Shown: one piece after another, positions 2,794 to 19,438 of the stretch
Numbering within the stretch: position 1 is the stretch's first letter
Layout of the letters: each line of letters begins with the position of its first letter
IMG/VR virus record: IMGVR_UViG_3300047557_003421
Location: 1 to 29,538 of that record
Source: a virus
Length of the DNA stretch: 29,538 nt
Reading direction: 5' to 3' (one strand)
Made by a program: the position numbers and the translations under genes
The notes under the pieces: model-generated
What the model was told of the DNA's origin: nothing
Databases searched by the model: none
What the model saw: the letters and a program-made list of their open reading frames with translations, nothing else

Positions 2794-3858
2794 ATGAAAC
2801 CATCACATTTTTACTTTGATGATTCTATTCTTGAAAGAGAGCACATATTATTTCGTCATGCTAATTATGTTGGTCATAAACATCTTGTACCAGAGATAGG
2901 CAATTACTCTGTTGTTCCTCAGAGCGATGATGGATTGTTTCTACTTAATACGTCTAATGGTATTGAATGTGTATCTAATGTTTGCAGACACAGACAAGCT
3001 ACCATTCTCAAAGGATCTGGCTCAACATCAAGTATAGTATGTCCTCTACATGGATGGACTTACGATACATCTGGTAAGCTGGTTGGTGCTCCTCACTTTG
3101 ATCCTTGTCCCAATGCATCACTAAGAAAGTTTCAGACACAGGAGTGGAACGGATTAGTGTTTGAAAAGAATGCTTTTGATATAGTTAGCGATCTCAAACA
3201 AATGAGACTCGCTAACCATTTCAATTTTGATGGATATGTTTTTCATTCCAGAAAAGAACATGAGTGTAATTATAACTGGAAAACATTCATCGAAGTCTAT
3301 TTGGATGACTATCATGTTGATCCATTCCATCCTGGACTAGGTAACTTTGTTGACTGCAGTAAACTTGACTGGCAGTTCGGAGATAGATACTCTGTTCAGT
3401 CTGTAGGAGTCAACAATGAATTGAAGTTAGCAGGTACCCCTGTATACAAACAATGGCACAAAGTACTACTTGATTATAGGAAAGGTGTTGTTCCTGAGTT
3501 TGGGGCTATATGGCTCACAATCTATCCTAATGTGATGGTTGAATGGTATCCAGAAGTACTTGTTATTTCTTCTGTATGGCCTGTTACTCCACAGAAGACA
3601 AGAAACATAGTAGACTTTTACTATCCAGAAGACATTGCTCACTTTGAGCAGGAGTTTGTTGAAGCTCATCAAGCAGCTTATATGGAAACTTGCTTTGAGG
3701 ATGATGAGATTGCAGAAAGAATGGATAGAGGTAGAAATCATTTGAACAATCTGAGATTTGACGATTACGGTCCTGTTCACGATCCTATGGAAATAGGTTT
3801 AAAATATTTCTATGAGTATTATGATAGGTTTATATTCTCAGATTGGACAAAAAGATAA
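2794..3858 (+). CDS. Rieske-type non-heme iron oxygenase, alpha subunit
   Basis: This is a likely O2-dependent mono- or dioxygenase of the ring-hydroxylating/choline-carnitine oxygenase type. The Rieske [2Fe-2S] site is complete: C64-x-H66 and C83-x-x-H86 (CRH ... CPLH). The catalytic domain carries DDYHVDPFHPG, with H174 and H179 as two mononuclear-iron ligands and D172 near the electron bridge. The third acidic ligand was not assigned. The 354 residues match the family's usual length. Substrate cannot be read from sequence, and no reductase partner is encoded here, so host ferredoxin/reductase would be needed. The desaturase gene starts in its stop codon (TAATG), and an Fe-S carrier lies two genes on. 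AAGGA precedes ATG 2794. Confidence 0.9.
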   Translation: MKPSHFYFDDSILEREHILFRHANYVGHKHLVPEIGNYSVVPQSDDGLFLLNTSNGIECVSNVCRHRQATILKGSGSTSSIVCPLHGWTYDTSGKLVGAPHFDPCPNASLRKFQTQEWNGLVFEKNAFDIVSDLKQMRLANHFNFDGYVFHSRKEHECNYNWKTFIEVYLDDYHVDPFHPGLGNFVDCSKLDWQFGDRYSVQSVGVNNELKLAGTPVYKQWHKVLLDYRKGVVPEFGAIWLTIYPNVMVEWYPEVLVISSVWPVTPQKTRNIVDFYYPEDIAHFEQEFVEAHQAAYMETCFEDDEIAERMDRGRNHLNNLRFDDYGPVHDPMEIGLKYFYEYYDRFIFSDWTKR

Positions 3859-7997: not shown

Positions 7998-8005
7998 CAT
8001 AAATA
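7998..8005 (+). promoter_or_regulatory. Putative late promoter CATAAATA
   Basis: An exact match to the NATAAATA late-promoter consensus of T4-like phages starts one base after the nrdB stop. The predicted start near 8012 is only about 20 nt before the terminator hairpin at 8032, so it would either give a short RNA or need readthrough to reach pstS. Confidence 0.45.
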
Positions 8006-8131: not shown

Positions 8132-9154
8132 ATGAAAAAGCTATTACTATCCTTACTATTATTATCTGGTGTTGTAAATGCTGCTGAATTTACTGGGGCA
8201 GGAGCAACATTCCCATTTCCAATCTATGCTAAGTGGGCAGAGGCATACAAAGCACAGACTGGTATTGGATTGAATTATCAATCTATCGGTTCAGGTGGTG
8301 GTATTCGTCAGATCAAAGCCAAGACAGTTGACTTTGGTGCAAGCGATATGCCACTAAAGAAAGAGGAGCTTGATAAAGAAGGACTAGTACAATTTCCAGC
8401 CATCATAGGTGGAGTTGTACCAGTGTTTAATCTAGACGGCATTGATGCTGGTAAGTTAAAATTAACCCCAGATATCATTGCAAACATTCATCTTGGTAAA
8501 ATTACAAAATGGAATGATAAAGCAATTGCAGAAATCAATCCAGGAGTAAATTTACCTGCCATGAACATCACAGTTGTGCATCGTGCTGATGGTTCAGGTA
8601 CTACATTTATTTGGACAAACTTCTTGGGTAAAGCTAACGCAGAGTTTGCTAAGTCTGTAGGCGAAGGCACGGCAGTCAAATGGCCAGTAGGGGTAGGCGG
8701 TAAAGGTAACGAAGGTGTTGCAGCACAAGTACAGAGACTGAAAGGTGCATTTGGTTATGTTGAGTATGCATACGCAAAGCGTAATAAGATTCCTTATGCG
8801 GCCGTAAAGAATCGTGACGGCAACTTTGTATTGCCAGATGATACTACATTCAAAGCAGCTGCCGCTAATGCTGATTGGAATAATGCTCCAGGAATGTACT
8901 TGCTACTAACATGGCAAACAGGCAAGGAAGCTTGGCCAGCAACTGGCGCAAGTTTCATTCTAATGCACAAACAACAAGCAGATGCATTAACAGGTCGTGC
9001 AGTTCTTAAATTCTTTGATTGGAGTTACAAGAACGGTGGTCAAATGTCAACAGAGTTGGAATATGTTCACATGCCACAAGATGTAATTAAACTCGTACAG
9101 GAAAACTGGAAGAAAGACTTCCGTGGTCCAGACGGCAATCCAATTTGGAAATAA
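8132..9154 (+). CDS. pstS: Periplasmic phosphate-binding protein PstS
   Basis: PstS binds orthophosphate in the periplasm and hands it to the host PstCAB importer. A Sec signal peptide (about 17 residues, cleaved near VNA) precedes a mature protein that is recognisably colinear with E. coli PstS. Phosphate contacts are conserved: TGAGATF (21-27), GSGGG, the Asp of FGASDMPL and RADGSGTT. Length 340 residues is full. No pstC, pstA or pstB is present, so the product would feed the host transporter. GGAG precedes the start. Phage pstS genes are known from cyanophages and pelagiphages; this copy is close to beta/gammaproteobacterial versions. I saw no clear PhoB box upstream. It is followed after 9 nt by the porin gene. 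Confidence 0.96.
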   Translation: MKKLLLSLLLLSGVVNAAEFTGAGATFPFPIYAKWAEAYKAQTGIGLNYQSIGSGGGIRQIKAKTVDFGASDMPLKKEELDKEGLVQFPAIIGGVVPVFNLDGIDAGKLKLTPDIIANIHLGKITKWNDKAIAEINPGVNLPAMNITVVHRADGSGTTFIWTNFLGKANAEFAKSVGEGTAVKWPVGVGGKGNEGVAAQVQRLKGAFGYVEYAYAKRNKIPYAAVKNRDGNFVLPDDTTFKAAAANADWNNAPGMYLLLTWQTGKEAWPATGASFILMHKQQADALTGRAVLKFFDWSYKNGGQMSTELEYVHMPQDVIKLVQENWKKDFRGPDGNPIWK

Positions 9155-9163
9155 GGAACACTA

Positions 9164-10570
9164 ATGAAAACATTTACAAAACTAGCACTATCAGTGGCAT
9201 TGGTATTCTCTGTACCTGCTTATGCAGACGACTATGTAAATACACTTCGAATCCTTAAAGACAAGGGTGTATTGACACAAAAGGAATATGATGTCAAAAT
9301 CCAAGAACACGAAGAAAAAGCTGAAAACCGTAAGTTCTCGGAATTCAGAATCGACAAAGATGTTAGCGAAAACAACAAGTGGAGACAGGCCAGAGCAAAT
9401 GATGGTTCAGTCACAGAAAACGGAATCGGACTTAAAAGTAAAGATGGAAACAATACCATCCAACTTACAGGTCGATTACATATGGACTATCGTCAGTACA
9501 CCCCGTCCTTCGGTACAGGTCAAACCACGGATACGTATCAGAACGTAGCCGAAGTTCGCCGTGCAAGGTTTGGAGTACGCGGTCAATTCCAAAAAGACTT
9601 TAAATATGAAATTGTAGGTAATCTAGGTAATGATGTTGGAGCTGCCAGCTCGTCAACAACAATGGATGTTGCTTGGGTCAACTATGCAGCTAGTCCAGAA
9701 GCTCAGTTTCAGTTTGGTCTTTTTAAAATGCCATTCAGTCTCGAGCAGCTAACTAGCTCTAATAACCTCGATTTCATGGAACGAAGTCTGATTGGTCAGG
9801 TTGAGGGTGAGTTTATTCCTGCTAAAGAAACAGGTTTCATGCTACATGGTATTCCTAAACCAGGTCTTACTTACGCAATGGCTGTAAGTCGCGGTAGAGG
9901 TAACAAAGATGCTGTAACAGATAGTCTTGATTATATTGGTCGTGTTACTACTAACATTGCCGAACTAATTGGTAGCAAGGCTTACACAGCACATCTAGGA
10001 GCTGCCTATAGTGTAGGTGATATTAAAGGTGGAGTTACTCCTGCTAGTGGTAGAACAGAATCAAGAGGACAAAGTGCTTGGTTTACTGGTCCAGCTTTGG
10101 TTGGAGAAACAACAAGAACTCGTCAAGGTCTAGAAGCTGCAATTGCCTACCAAGGATTGAAAGTTCAAGGAGAGCAGTTTGAATTCAACTATGATCCAAC
10201 TACTGGAAATGATCAAAAAATAATTGGTCATTATATTCTTGCAACGTACAACCTAACTGGAGAGAGCCATAACTATAAGGACGGTGTGTTTAGTTCAATC
10301 AAACCATCCAACCCAGTTGACAAAGGTGGTAAAGGTGCATGGCAAGTCGGAGTTCGTCTAAGCGAGTTTGATGCATCTCCCATAACTGTTGTTGCTGGTA
10401 AATCCAACAGAGCGGTCTCTACTACCTACGGTATAACATGGTTTGCTACAGATAACCTGAGATTTATGGTTAATTATGTAGACACTAAGTTTGATCATTT
10501 AGTAGGGTCTTCTGGTGGTAGAGTGAATGGAGATAGGGCAGTAATGTTCCGAAGTCAGTTCAACTTCTAA
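9164..10570 (+). CDS. Phosphate-selective porin (OprO/OprP family)
   Basis: This is an outer-membrane beta-barrel porin. The signal peptide ends in VPAYA (residue 21). A short helical/coiled-coil region follows (LTQKEYDVKIQEHEEKAE), typical of Porin_O_P proteins. The barrel then starts with QLTGRLHMDYRQY and AEVRRARFGVRGQF. The chain ends in FNF, the terminal aromatic signal for BAM-assisted insertion. At 468 residues it is full length. It lies 9 nt after pstS, ends at a terminator, and probably shares the transcript with pstS. The family is known for phosphate/polyphosphate channels, so selective phosphate entry is a family-based inference. A phage-encoded porin is unusual. Confidence 0.9.
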   Translation: MKTFTKLALSVALVFSVPAYADDYVNTLRILKDKGVLTQKEYDVKIQEHEEKAENRKFSEFRIDKDVSENNKWRQARANDGSVTENGIGLKSKDGNNTIQLTGRLHMDYRQYTPSFGTGQTTDTYQNVAEVRRARFGVRGQFQKDFKYEIVGNLGNDVGAASSSTTMDVAWVNYAASPEAQFQFGLFKMPFSLEQLTSSNNLDFMERSLIGQVEGEFIPAKETGFMLHGIPKPGLTYAMAVSRGRGNKDAVTDSLDYIGRVTTNIAELIGSKAYTAHLGAAYSVGDIKGGVTPASGRTESRGQSAWFTGPALVGETTRTRQGLEAAIAYQGLKVQGEQFEFNYDPTTGNDQKIIGHYILATYNLTGESHNYKDGVFSSIKPSNPVDKGGKGAWQVGVRLSEFDASPITVVAGKSNRAVSTTYGITWFATDNLRFMVNYVDTKFDHLVGSSGGRVNGDRAVMFRSQFNF

Positions 10571-11759: not shown

Positions 11760-12632
11760 ATGAGAGAAGATGTAAAGTTTGCTATAGCTCAAGCACATGC
11801 AAGGTACGGAAGATTCTTTTTCTTTCCTAATGATGATCCTATCGGAGCTTGTCTTCACTTTTATGGTGAATGGGCTCAACAAGAATTTTCCTTATTCGAT
11901 AAATTCCTAACTAAAAACTCATGTGTACTAGACATAGGTGCCAATATAGGCACCCATGCTGTATATTTTAGCAAGAAATGTCATGAGGGGCTTGTAGTTG
12001 CTGTTGAACCTCAGTTGTATATTCATCAACTACTATCAACTAATCTTCTCTTCAATGCATGTCTCAACACAATCCCTGTTATGGCAGGAGCTTCTAGTGA
12101 AAGAAAATCAATCAAGGTAATTAATATAGATCCTCTTTCTCCTTCTCCTAAATTAAATTATGGTGAATTTAAACTTAAAGAGGAAGATAGAGGTCTCTAT
12201 ATTGAATGCTATCCAATTGATTACCTATCAAGACAATTCGAAAGACTTGATCTTATTAAGATTGATGTAGAAGGACTTGAAGTAGATGTGTTGAATGGTG
12301 CTAAGCAGACATTAAGCAAGTTTAAGTCGCATTTATATCTGGAATTCAATGCCAAGCAAGGAGCTCCTGAGCTTTACGAAAAGATTATTCAACTTGATTA
12401 TGTTCCATATTGGCATGTATATACAAAGTTTAATCCTGATAACTTTAATCGTCAAACGCAGAATATTTGGGAGCTAGATAACTTTGTCATTGATGAGTCT
12501 ACACTTGACAAACGATATGAAGCTAACATCATTTGTATTCATAAAGACAATGAACAGCCTACAGGATTGAAAAGAGTTGAGGAAGGTGAAAATATTACTA
12601 CGTATCTTAAGGCTGAGGGTCTTCTCTCCTAG
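11760..12632 (+). CDS. FkbM-family methyltransferase
   Basis: This is an S-adenosylmethionine-dependent methyltransferase, 290 residues. Motif I is VLDIGANIGTHA (56-67), followed by VAVEP at about 80-84 for the SAM ribose and LIKIDVEGLEVDVLNGA, the FkbM signature block, in the second half. Family members O-methylate sugars or small molecules. The remaining C-terminal third (WHVYTKFNPDNF region) is typical. The ribosome site is weak. It converges on the minus-strand operon and overlaps its last gene by 26 nt, with no terminator visible. The substrate is unknown; the nearby glycosyltransferase suggests a glycan. Confidence 0.88.
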   Translation: MREDVKFAIAQAHARYGRFFFFPNDDPIGACLHFYGEWAQQEFSLFDKFLTKNSCVLDIGANIGTHAVYFSKKCHEGLVVAVEPQLYIHQLLSTNLLFNACLNTIPVMAGASSERKSIKVINIDPLSPSPKLNYGEFKLKEEDRGLYIECYPIDYLSRQFERLDLIKIDVEGLEVDVLNGAKQTLSKFKSHLYLEFNAKQGAPELYEKIIQLDYVPYWHVYTKFNPDNFNRQTQNIWELDNFVIDESTLDKRYEANIICIHKDNEQPTGLKRVEEGENITTYLKAEGLLS

Positions 12633-13398
12633 GTACTTCACAATCAACCCATTTAAGGTTATTGTATTTGTTGTAAAGCCAGTTACCTTTTGGAATCAAA
12701 CATCGTCCTAGTTCTGGATGCACTTCTATTCTAATTTGTACCACTGCCCATACCAACCAAGCAAGATACATTGAAACTACAAACGCTATTCCATACTTCC
12801 AAGCGTTACATTTAATGATTTCTAGTCTACGACGTCTTTTTTCTGCTGCTATCTTATCAGCTTTTCTTTTTTTCACCCAAGCAGCTGCTTGCTGCTTTTT
12901 CATTCTTTCCATCATTTTCTCTACACGAGTGTAAAGATCCCCCAATTCCGGAGGACAGTTGTATACCATCAACTCACGTAACTCCGCTTGCATAGCTATG
13001 AGACGACTTTGCATTAAAACTCTCTGCAATGCTCTTTTACCAAGACTTACTTCACCAGTATATACTTCATTATCATGCTTCTCTTCTTCCTCAAATATTG
13101 CAGAGCACTTAGCGTAATTTTCAAAATATACACCTAGCTCTTCACCAATCTGAGTATAGATATCATTTGGCTGCTGCTTGCTTAATTCTAAAACACGATT
13201 CTTTTCTTGAATGTATTGGTTGCGCTCAGCAGTAGTAGGAGGATTATCTCTATGACGAAAGTTAAACTGCTCTTCAAGATCTTTTAACACTCCCTTCACA
13301 TCACCCGCTGCTCCGGCTATTTCTTTATATAACTCACAACCTTTCTTTACTGCTTGAACGGCACCATTCGCTAATGCGAAAAGTGTCAGTGGATCCAT
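12607..13398 (-). CDS. Conserved phage membrane-associated protein
   Basis: The 263-residue protein opens MDPLTLFALANGAVQAVKKG and continues with EIAGAAGDVKGVLKDLEEQF, a start I recall from conserved hypothetical proteins of T4-like marine phages. A long helical, charged middle (Lys/Arg-rich near residues 165-190) is followed by one membrane span (about 200-222, with WLVWAVVQI) and a short C-terminal part containing two Cys. It is the last gene of the minus-strand late operon and starts directly after the nuclease stop. A structural or membrane-related late role is inferred only from expression class and topology. Confidence 0.72.
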   Translation of the reverse strand: MDPLTLFALANGAVQAVKKGCELYKEIAGAAGDVKGVLKDLEEQFNFRHRDNPPTTAERNQYIQEKNRVLELSKQQPNDIYTQIGEELGVYFENYAKCSAIFEEEEKHDNEVYTGEVSLGKRALQRVLMQSRLIAMQAELRELMVYNCPPELGDLYTRVEKMMERMKKQQAAAWVKKRKADKIAAEKRRRRLEIIKCNAWKYGIAFVVSMYLAWLVWAVVQIRIEVHPELGRCLIPKGNWLYNKYNNLKWVDCEVPRREDPQP

Positions 13399-13824
13399 TT
13401 ACGGTTTAAGTTCTCCTCTTGCAATCAGTGCTTGCTTGTTTTTCTGATGCATTTCTTGAACCAATTGTTTGTTTTCTCCTTGATATGCTACAGCGTAATT
13501 ATTTTCACATAGCCAATCATTCAAACTCTTTCCATCTTCCATGACGAACACACCAAGTATTCTTCCAAACTTATCATCTACATCTTCTGCCTTCAATGTT
13601 CTGATTGTTTGCCAAGAACCCAAAGGGAGTTTCTCGGCTAACTTTTTCTTTGATAGAAGACCTCTTGGCTTCTCTTCTTCATTTGACGTTCTAGATTCTG
13701 GTGTGTCTATTCCTGCCATTCGTACTCTCTGATTGGCAAGTATGATATTGAAGCCCAAATCAAGATCAATATCAACCGTATCACCATCTAATACTTTATT
13801 AATTCTACATCTATATTGAAACAT
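13399..13824 (-). CDS. Staphylococcal-nuclease-like (thermonuclease) protein
   Basis: The 141-residue nuclease has an SNase fold. Metal-binding acid residues are in DGDT (D13, D15). Catalytic residues R35, D40 and E43 lie in RMAGIDTPE, and R88 in KFGRIL fits the second catalytic Arg. No signal peptide is seen, so it would act in the cytoplasm or be packaged. A ribosome site AAAGGA precedes ATG 13824. It lies in the minus-strand late operon, which argues against an early host-DNA-degradation role. Ca2+-dependent cleavage is family knowledge. Confidence 0.9.
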   Translation of the reverse strand: MFQYRCRINKVLDGDTVDIDLDLGFNIILANQRVRMAGIDTPESRTSNEEEKPRGLLSKKKLAEKLPLGSWQTIRTLKAEDVDDKFGRILGVFVMEDGKSLNDWLCENNYAVAYQGENKQLVQEMHQKNKQALIARGELKP

Positions 13825-13835
13825 TTTTGAATCCT

Positions 13836-14066
13836 TTAGGTTATTTTATGTCTTATTACTTTCTTTAATGAGTCTGCAAAGAGGTCTACATTTTTGTCAG
13901 TAACATCCAACCACGGTCTCCAAAAATCATAGGTAAGATTATTAATAGCTTTAGTGAAATGGTGATACCCATTTCTTTTCAAATCAACAAACTCACAATA
14001 AAAAGTTGCATTTTTATCCACTACTGTCTCTATATTGAAAGTTGGGATTTGATAACCGTATAACAT
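13836..14066 (-). CDS. Small protein, unknown function
   Basis: This is a 76-residue protein with no clear motif. It contains an aromatic-rich stretch (YHHFTKAINNL ... YDFWRPW) and a helical C-terminus. AGAGGA precedes ATG 14066. It starts directly after the stop of the upstream gene in the minus-strand late operon. No family recognised. Confidence 0.65.
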   Translation of the reverse strand: MLYGYQIPTFNIETVVDKNATFYCEFVDLKRNGYHHFTKAINNLTYDFWRPWLDVTDKNVDLFADSLKKVIRHKIT

Positions 14067-14267
14067 TTATTCCTCTTTTGGGATTTCTTCTCCAGGACCA
14101 ATAGAAGGATCTGCAGATTTAAGAAGTTGTAGTTCTTCGAGCTGAGGATCAATCTGATCTTGGATATAGTTAATGAAATTAGCCACATCTTGGAAAGGCA
14201 TTCTCAAAAATGGCTTCATCATAAAGTTGATTTCTTCTGGTGTCAATTCAAGTTTAATTTTGTTCAT
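14067..14267 (-). CDS. Small acidic protein, first gene of the minus-strand operon
   Basis: The 66-residue product has a helical domain (LTPEEINFMMKPFLRMPFQD) and an acidic, Pro/Gly-containing tail. GGAG at 14273-14276 (minus sense) sets ATG 14267. A longer reading to 14531 would cross the divergent promoter region and the HAD gene and is rejected. It is 48 nt downstream of the late promoter CATAAATA. Confidence 0.75.
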   Translation of the reverse strand: MNKIKLELTPEEINFMMKPFLRMPFQDVANFINYIQDQIDPQLEELQLLKSADPSIGPGEEIPKEE

Positions 14268-14314
14268 GAAAACTCCATATGTTAAAAAAATAATAAAAAC
14301 TGCACTACTAGTGG

Positions 14315-14322
14315 TATTTATG
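14315..14322 (-). promoter_or_regulatory. Late promoter CATAAATA, minus strand
   Basis: On the minus strand this is an exact NATAAATA match. The expected start is near 14308, leaving about a 40-nt leader before ATG 14267. It would drive the four minus-strand genes. Its edge is one base from the -35 of the divergent early promoter. Confidence 0.75.
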
Positions 14323-14323
14323 G

Positions 14324-14352
14324 TTGACTTATTTAAACCTTTACGGTAAGAT
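14324..14352 (+). promoter_or_regulatory. Early sigma70-type promoter for the HAD gene
   Basis: TTGACT (14324-14329), a 17-bp spacer and TAAGAT (14347-14352) lie 27 nt before ATG 14379. The G before TTGAC and the TTATTT after it match the other early promoters of the window. Confidence 0.75.
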
Positions 14353-14378
14353 CCCAAAATCTGTAATCGGAGAACGTA

Positions 14379-15119
14379 ATGAAACAAGTGTATATTTTTG
14401 ACGTAGATGGTACTGTAACACCCAGTAGAGATGCAATCGACCCTGTTTTTAAGAAGTGGCTCAAGAACTGGATGCGAAACAAGCAGGTATATTTTGCTAC
14501 AGGAAGCGACTACGCTAAAACTCAAGATCAACTTGGTAATGATATTCTAGACCTTGCTCAAGCTGTGTTTTGCTGCGCAGGGAATGCTATTTATCATAAA
14601 GGCAAGTTGATGTACCAAAGTAAATGGACACTCAAGGAGCCAGTTGTTCAGTGGTTAAATGAACAATTGTTCAAGAGTCTTTTCACAGGTAAAGTTGGGC
14701 GTCATATTGAAAACCGCATTGGTCTTGTAAATTTCAGTGTAGTTGGTAGAGCTGCAGATAAAGAGCAGCGTGCTAAGTATGTGGAGTATGATAAAAAGAC
14801 TGGCGAACGCAAGAAAATAGCTAAGCTGTTTAACGATAAGTTTGGTGGCCAAGCTATAGCCCAGGTTGCTGGAGAGACAGGTATTGATATTATGGAACCA
14901 GGAAAAGACAAGGGTCAGATTGCTCAGTACTTTATTGAACCATTTATCCATGTTTACTTTTTTGGTGATCAGATGGATGAAGGTGGTAATGATTACCCTC
15001 TTGCTGCTTCTTTGAAAGAAGCATATATACAGATGGGGCAAAGTAAGGCCACCACCGTGAAAGTGAAGTCGTGGAAAGACACATTTGATTATTTACAGAA
15101 GATGGAGAAAAAGCAATGA
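14379..15119 (+). CDS. HAD-superfamily hydrolase, eukaryotic-phosphomannomutase-like
   Basis: The 246-residue protein has HAD motif I FDVDGT (nucleophile D8, acid D10) and a C-terminal FFGDQMDEGGNDYPLA that carries the metal-binding acid residues. The middle has GRAADKEQRAKYVEYD and later AGETGIDIMEPGKDKGQ, the layout of eukaryotic-type phosphomannomutases (PMM family) rather than a generic HAD-IIB phosphatase. It could therefore interconvert mannose-6-P and mannose-1-P, or be a sugar phosphatase. It has its own early promoter and a CGGAG ribosome site. A glycosyltransferase follows one gene later, consistent with sugar-nucleotide supply. Confidence 0.8.
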   Translation: MKQVYIFDVDGTVTPSRDAIDPVFKKWLKNWMRNKQVYFATGSDYAKTQDQLGNDILDLAQAVFCCAGNAIYHKGKLMYQSKWTLKEPVVQWLNEQLFKSLFTGKVGRHIENRIGLVNFSVVGRAADKEQRAKYVEYDKKTGERKKIAKLFNDKFGGQAIAQVAGETGIDIMEPGKDKGQIAQYFIEPFIHVYFFGDQMDEGGNDYPLAASLKEAYIQMGQSKATTVKVKSWKDTFDYLQKMEKKQ

Positions 15120-17905: not shown

Positions 17906-19438
17906 ATGAAATTATTGGGATTGAGAATCAATGCACATGATAGTAACTTTACTTTATATGATGGTGAAAAGTTAAGGTATCATAAAACTGAGAGAAGTAA
18001 ACAAGAAAAGCATCACGCTTCAATGGGTCTTTTTGATTGGAGGGGTGATGTTAAACGAGCGTTCGGAGTATCTGTTGATGAGATAGATAAAATATGTATC
18101 TCTATGGAAGAGACTACAATCAACGAATTCATCTCTGACGCTCAAAGAGCTTCCTCTGATCTAGTCAAAAAATGTATAGGATTTCCTGTTTCATGTGATG
18201 TCTATCAGATAGACCATCACTATGCTCACGCCTTAAGTTATGTTCCATACATGGAACCAGACGTCTCAATCATTATTGATGGTATTGGTGACAACGAAGT
18301 TCCTTGGTCAGTATTCAAAAAAGACACTCTTGTTGAAGCAGGTGATGTGTGGGCACATGGATCGATCGGTTTGTTAATGAATGAGTTTGGAAAGTTTGCT
18401 GGTATTAGCTACGGACATGAAGTAGATATTGCTGGTAAAGTCATGGGACTTCAGTCTTACGGTAAGTTTGATAAAAAATATTTTGACACACTAGGTTTTG
18501 CCAACATCTACAACGCCAAGACATTGTTTAACTTTAATAGATGGAATGACTATATTGGTGATCCTCTGCTGGGTAAACAACATATGCTTGACTGGATCAA
18601 CACCGTACACTTGAAGACTGGTGAAGTTCTTCTTTCATTCTTCCAAAAACATTGTAAACCTGATGATGTCATTTTTTATTCTGGTGGTGTTGCTCAGAAT
18701 GTAATCTGGAATACAGTTCTTAAGAAACATTTTAAGAACTTAGTGATTCTACCACACTCAGCAGATGATGGTATCAGTATAGGTGCTGTGGAGTGGTTGA
18801 GGAGAAAGTATCAGTTACCTAGAGTTGAGTTCACAAACTTTCCATACAGTCAAACAGACGAAGCTCCTAGCAGTGAACCCACTTATGAAGTTATCGACTT
18901 CGTAGCTGAAGCTCTATCACAGGGTAAAACTGTAGCTTGGTATCAAGGTAACGGAGAGATTGGTCCTAGAGCTCTTGGAAATAGATCAATTTTAATGGAC
19001 CCCAGGACACAAAATGGAAGGGAAATCATTAACAAGATCAAAAAGAGAGAGCAATATAGACCATTTGGTGCTTCTATTCTTTCTGAACATCGAGAAGAAT
19101 ATTTTGATCTAGAATTTGATAATCCTTACATGTTGTATGTTGGTAAAGCTAAGACAGATAAACTAGATGCAATTACTCATGTAGATGGTACGTGCAGAGT
19201 ACAAACTGTAGAACCTAATAGTGGTCATTTTAGAAAGCTGCTTGAAAAGTTCTATCAACTAACAGGATGTCCAGTTCTCCTCAATACGAGTTTGAATCTT
19301 GGTGGTAAACCAATAGCAGGCTACACATTCAATGCTGAACAATTATATTACGATTCACATCTAGATTACCTTGTTATAGGCGATAAAATTTATACTGAAC
19401 AATATGGCAAAGTACACCTTCCTAAATACACTTTCTAA
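17906..19438 (+). CDS. Carbamoyltransferase (NodU/CmcH/TobZ family)
   Basis: This enzyme transfers a carbamoyl group from carbamoyl phosphate, via carbamoyl-adenylate, to a hydroxyl on a sugar or small molecule. The N-terminal Kae1-like domain shows NAHDSN (9-14), HHYAHA (104-109, metal site) and GGVAQN (260-265). The C-terminal YrdC-like carbamoyltransferase domain shows GEIGPRALGNRSI (350-362), then REQYRPFGASIL. At 510 residues it is slightly shorter than NodU (about 560). Similar genes occur in T4-like cyanophages from memory. The target is unknown. Confidence 0.93.
   Translation: MKLLGLRINAHDSNFTLYDGEKLRYHKTERSKQEKHHASMGLFDWRGDVKRAFGVSVDEIDKICISMEETTINEFISDAQRASSDLVKKCIGFPVSCDVYQIDHHYAHALSYVPYMEPDVSIIIDGIGDNEVPWSVFKKDTLVEAGDVWAHGSIGLLMNEFGKFAGISYGHEVDIAGKVMGLQSYGKFDKKYFDTLGFANIYNAKTLFNFNRWNDYIGDPLLGKQHMLDWINTVHLKTGEVLLSFFQKHCKPDDVIFYSGGVAQNVIWNTVLKKHFKNLVILPHSADDGISIGAVEWLRRKYQLPRVEFTNFPYSQTDEAPSSEPTYEVIDFVAEALSQGKTVAWYQGNGEIGPRALGNRSILMDPRTQNGREIINKIKKREQYRPFGASILSEHREEYFDLEFDNPYMLYVGKAKTDKLDAITHVDGTCRVQTVEPNSGHFRKLLEKFYQLTGCPVLLNTSLNLGGKPIAGYTFNAEQLYYDSHLDYLVIGDKIYTEQYGKVHLPKYTF

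Follow-up and report, generated by a model that had tools for sequence, protein, structure and literature searches.

A T4-type late promoter consists of an 8-bp box (NATAAATA) lying roughly one helical turn ahead of the transcription start, and a −35 element is not required. In T4, this box occupies positions −13 to −6 (PMC1524935), and the activated late complex together with its clamp reaches 13 bp further upstream (PMC2988020). The timing of T4 late transcription is set by the availability of gp55, gp33 and gp45 (PMC6024815, PMC2988020).

The layout reported here, a late promoter adjoining an opposite-reading early promoter, is already known in T4. Between rnh and gene 34, the late box TATAAATA of gene 34 (150767-150774, plus strand) lies 4 bp from an opposite-reading TTTACT-17-TATAAT promoter for rnh. 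The latter, Pe148.6, is a confirmed early promoter that is active 1 min post infection and whose published region starts at 150,727 (PMC6024815); the early start predicted for rnh coincides with this position. At segD/24, TATAAATA (107288, plus strand) lies 6 bp from an opposite-reading TTTACA-17-TATTAT, the segD promoter being a predicted one. In RB49 and S-PM2, early sigma70-type and NATAAATA late promoters overlap at one gene, which is thought to result in middle expression (PMC2984593). The textbook early/late switch is the A2b/A2c-A3 region of phi29, which works through p4 and p6 (PMC3100819). Further, when one direction of a bidirectional E. coli promoter is strongly activated, the opposite direction is repressed, often by polymerase competition alone, a competition that is absent at basal levels (PMC12825309).

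In this work, a further case was analyzed in the window, by which we mean the whole stretch of viral DNA under study (29,538 nt). Compared to rnh/34, it involves different genes, the two elements are separated by 1 bp instead of 4 bp, and the T4-style TTTACT −35 is replaced by another hexamer. In contrast with the pair of RB49 and S-PM2, which serves a single gene, the window pair is divergent and faces different genes. It resembles phi29 in that early and late promoters, here putative, share one control region and serve genes on opposite strands, early ones on one and late ones on the other; however, phi29 employs one host holoenzyme plus the repressor/activator p4 and p6, whereas the late box of the window would need a different sigma factor. 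With the E. coli promoters it shares overlapping divergent initiation, here a predicted one, in which competition is expected when activation in one direction becomes strong. Those promoters, however, are pseudo-symmetric and use host polymerase both ways. A literature search on occlusion between divergent early and late promoters in phages retrieved nothing specific.

Results

The intergenic gap under study (14268-14378, 111 nt) is located between a minus-strand ORF of 66 aa (ATG at 14267) and a plus-strand ORF of 246 aa (ATG at 14379). The box CATAAATA, of the NATAAATA class, lies on the minus strand at 14315-14322, ahead of the minus-strand gene and upstream of its ATG, as a T4-type late promoter would; since the T4 rule puts the box at −13 to −6, the predicted late start is at approximately 14309. 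A single base, the G at 14323, separates it from the −35 element (TTGACT, 14324-14329, plus strand) of a divergent sigma70-type promoter, whose −10 element (TAAGAT, 14347-14352, plus strand) follows after a 17-bp spacer and carries no TG extension; the predicted early start is at approximately 14359. The first-pass annotation had reported a minus-strand late box one base from a divergent −35, and re-reading of the sequence confirmed this arrangement, with letters and coordinates of both elements exact.

The first gene behind the late box, m4 (14067-14267, minus strand), encodes the 66-aa protein, for which Pfam and PHROG searches gave no match. It is followed on the same strand by m3 (13836-14066), encoding a 76-aa conserved protein, m2 (13399-13824), encoding a staphylococcal-nuclease-like protein (SNase; PF00565, E=2.9e-10), and m1 (12607-13398), the last gene of the cluster, encoding a 263-aa protein without assigned function. 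Homologues of m4 were otherwise found only in L001/G003 (89% identity in L001), and only in the window and L001/G003 does m4 separate the late box from m3. On the plus strand, the first gene behind the early promoter (14379-15119) encodes a HAD/phosphomannomutase-like hydrolase (PF03332, E=3.8e-24; PF08282, E=6e-12).

Elsewhere, the window encodes a phosphate-binding protein resembling PstS together with an OprO/OprP-type phosphate-selective porin (8132-10570; late-type box upstream at 7998-8005), as well as homologues of the alpha subunit of a Rieske-type ring-hydroxylating oxygenase (2794-3858; PF00848, PF00355) and of a carbamoyltransferase (17906-19438; PF16861, PF02543). Similarity of the window DNA to named phages was limited to short glycosyltransferase matches.

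Regarding chance expectation, the late 7-mer arose in 1.7% of dinucleotide shuffles of the gap, and the chance of the box on the rarer strand was about 0.2–0.4% per given 100 nt. A sigma70 word scoring at least 9/12 arose in 16% of the shuffles, and an adjacent box/sigma70 pair in 0 of 5000. Over the window, words within one mismatch of TATAAATA were not over-represented (36 vs. 47 expected), nor were 9/12 sigma70 words in 5 kb (18 vs. 15.3 expected). As such counts of box words are uninformative, the late box was judged comparatively, and it is the comparative evidence that raises the putative pairing of box and sigma70 promoter above chance.

Among the relatives are near-complete IMG/VR records of 155–163 kb, which encode gp55, gp45, gp43, regA and other T4-type genes. 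Both gp55, the late sigma factor, and gp45, the clamp, are present in G001, G002, G005, G006 and G008. They are absent from the window, which is a 29.5-kb fragment, so that for its phage both are inferred from these relatives. ATAAATA was found 26–37 bp from the start of gp22 (5/5 records) and of gp23 (5/5 records where this gene was found), and NATAAATA also precedes several gp18 and gp19 genes of the gp55-encoding relatives. Among 7-mers of its composition, ATAAATA ranked first within 100 nt upstream of gene starts (68/129; runner-up, 57/208), and box orientation strongly matched gene direction (37 vs. 5 and 39 vs. 5).

At the homologous junctions, all relatives examined carry the box upstream of the minus-strand cluster (m3, m1 and sometimes SNase), even though m3 identity is no more than about 45–65% in most of them and the surrounding DNA has diverged. 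In L053 the box coincides with the first HAD codons; in L011, the box does not have m3 as its neighbour. Taken together, these comparisons make it almost certain that the late box is real.

The early promoter of the window is, on its own, modest and near chance: TTGACT-17-TAAGAT scores 9/12 against TTGACA/TATAAT, with a spacer within the 16–18 bp range and without an extended −10. In this phage group, sigma70 matches are enriched upstream of genes: of 276 matches of at least 10/12, 77 were found within 120 nt of a gene start, compared to 18–39 for shuffled −35 controls, and those of at least 11/12 numbered 17 vs. 0–4 upstream of genes. L001, the sole close relative with the same gene arrangement, encodes a HAD protein 95% identical to that of the window; there, both hexamers are identical while the spacer and the neighbouring and downstream bases have changed, and no base separates the box from TTGACT.

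At nearly all homologous junctions, the plus-strand gene has a sigma70 match whose position is not fixed: its distance from the box is 0, 1, 10, 12 or 24 bp (10 and 24 bp in L052 and L078), or it falls inside the divergent gene. Two genomic places harbour the minus-strand cluster (12607-14066 in the window) and its late box, which adjoin either the HAD gene or, in G005, G006, G008 and G009, a gene of about 103 aa followed by the DNA polymerase gene gp43. At the gp43-side junction, 13 distinct sequences share the order box, 12 bp, TTGATT, 17 bp and a TAnnAT-like −10 with a TG one base ahead of it; the −35 is invariant, and the hexamers are 89% identical vs. 67% outside them.

In most HAD-side relatives, the late box is retained but the back-to-back early promoter is missing, as the box is close to the HAD start and leaves no room for an intergenic sigma70 promoter. 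Instead, TTGATT-18-TATAGT, or a sequence near it, is located inside m3, beyond the box and facing it. This match beat most synonymous recodings (p = 0.025–0.067 each in seven related sequences and 0.035 in L053, values that are not independent, the sequences being related); neither the window nor L001 nor the gp43-side sequences have it. Overall, both promoters of the window are probably real, and the promoter type, and that only, suggests that the HAD gene is early.

An alternative that we consider unlikely is that the late promoter alone is functional, TTGACT/TAAGAT having arisen by chance and HAD transcription originating elsewhere or by read-through. While this would agree with a score equalled in 16% of shuffled gaps and a density of 9/12 words not above that of shuffles, it sits poorly with the two hexamers unchanged amid altered bases in L001 and with the sigma70 promoters of homologous junctions. 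Further, a read-through source for HAD is not obvious, since the genes upstream of it are read from the opposite strand.

Across ten records, 11 of 247 late boxes (4.5%) had a sigma70 match in divergent orientation no more than 30 bp away, which is within the 4.1–6.9% obtained with control 7-mers. Six of these 11 cases correspond to this junction or its homologues; the pairing belongs to this strand boundary and not to the promoters of the phage generally. A search of the sequence collection for this back-to-back motif, specified exactly and with a gap of two bases, gave no match. A helical-step series in the spacing (0–1, 10–12 and 24 bp) was also considered and dropped, as independent cases were too few.

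Two other arrangements were observed in the relatives. In G002 (IMGVR_UViG_3300008267_000003, 1934-1962), a minus-strand late box (1947-1953) is nested in the spacer (17 bp) of a divergent TTGACC-17-TATAAT, so that the two overlap more tightly than in the window; the survey of divergent junctions employed a crude gene caller, was noisy and served only to spot this nested case. In G001 (IMGVR_UViG_3300008266_000014, 78235-78263), a late box is located in the spacer of a same-direction 12/12 sigma70 promoter, a candidate dual early/late promoter.

Discussion

The reading that we favour, with a probability of roughly 0.7, is that the site constitutes a compact late/early gene boundary, in which a gp55-type late promoter stands back to back with a sigma70 promoter, their overlap making initiation exclusive and the supply of sigma factors setting the timing. 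With predicted starts at approximately 14309 and 14359, the upstream edge of the late complex is early-promoter DNA, and the overlapping footprints together with the 13-bp extension by the clamp mean that the two complexes should exclude each other. The proposal of the first-pass annotation that each polymerase would cover the other's element, the late box or the early −35, is therefore supported by geometry, as a prediction, and mutually exclusive initiation at the two promoters appears plausible.

According to this compact-boundary reading, the site would divide a minus-strand late island (m4-m3-SNase-m1) from plus-strand genes starting with the HAD hydrolase. Early in infection, it would be usable by host holoenzyme only, leading to transcription of the HAD gene. 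Once gp55, gp33 and gp45 are made, the late polymerase (gp55-RNA polymerase with the gp45 clamp) would open the box and the minus-strand island would be transcribed. As the initiation complexes overlap, one initiation would take place at a time, and the strong activated late complex, comprising polymerase and clamp, should reduce residual initiation at the early promoter. This reduction is probably secondary to packing, with timing set by the supply of sigma factors.

The site had also been read as a possible one-way timing switch. Such a dedicated switch would mean that the one-base spacing was selected so that late polymerase shuts off the HAD promoter, early polymerase delays the late island, or both. 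The geometric overlap of the footprints is consistent with this, as is the recurrence of a back-to-back pair in two genomic settings, on the HAD side and on the gp43 side, and at T4 rnh/34 and segD/24. However, the exclusion is symmetric, and a one-way action is therefore unsupported. The variable spacing, the sigma70 match inside m3 in most HAD-side relatives with the same genes and the lack of a genome-wide excess of pairs all argue against selection for a switch, as does T4, where late promoters are silent until gp55, gp33 and gp45, which govern late timing, exist. Nor did we find the conserved geometry coupling the promoters that a phi29-like switch would display, the sigma70 match lying 0–24 bp from the box or across it. 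A dedicated switch is thus quite unlikely; it is unproven and not favoured over what appears to be an ordinary compact gene boundary.

It is likewise improbable, in our estimation, that this T4-like group retains the two promoters under a single polymerase footprint in both genomic settings because the DNA on which the gp45 clamp must dock is filled by the early promoter, with competition between clamp-loaded late polymerase and host polymerase sharpening the early-to-late change for this gene pair. Finally, a chance juxtaposition of two non-functional words, frequent as such words are in AT-rich DNA, is extremely improbable and is already contradicted by the retention of the box in all relatives with diverged surroundings; nor did an adjacent pair arise in the shuffles.

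Unless the predicted exclusion matters in vivo, the compact boundary described here is chiefly a record of the packing of early and late promoters, and of their movement, at strand boundaries in uncultured T4-like phages. If it does matter, this site and T4 Pe148.6/gene 34 would offer a simple way of testing whether late transcription, when activated by the clamp, represses early promoters nearby and, as T4 is tractable, the idea could be tested there without culturing the phage of the window.
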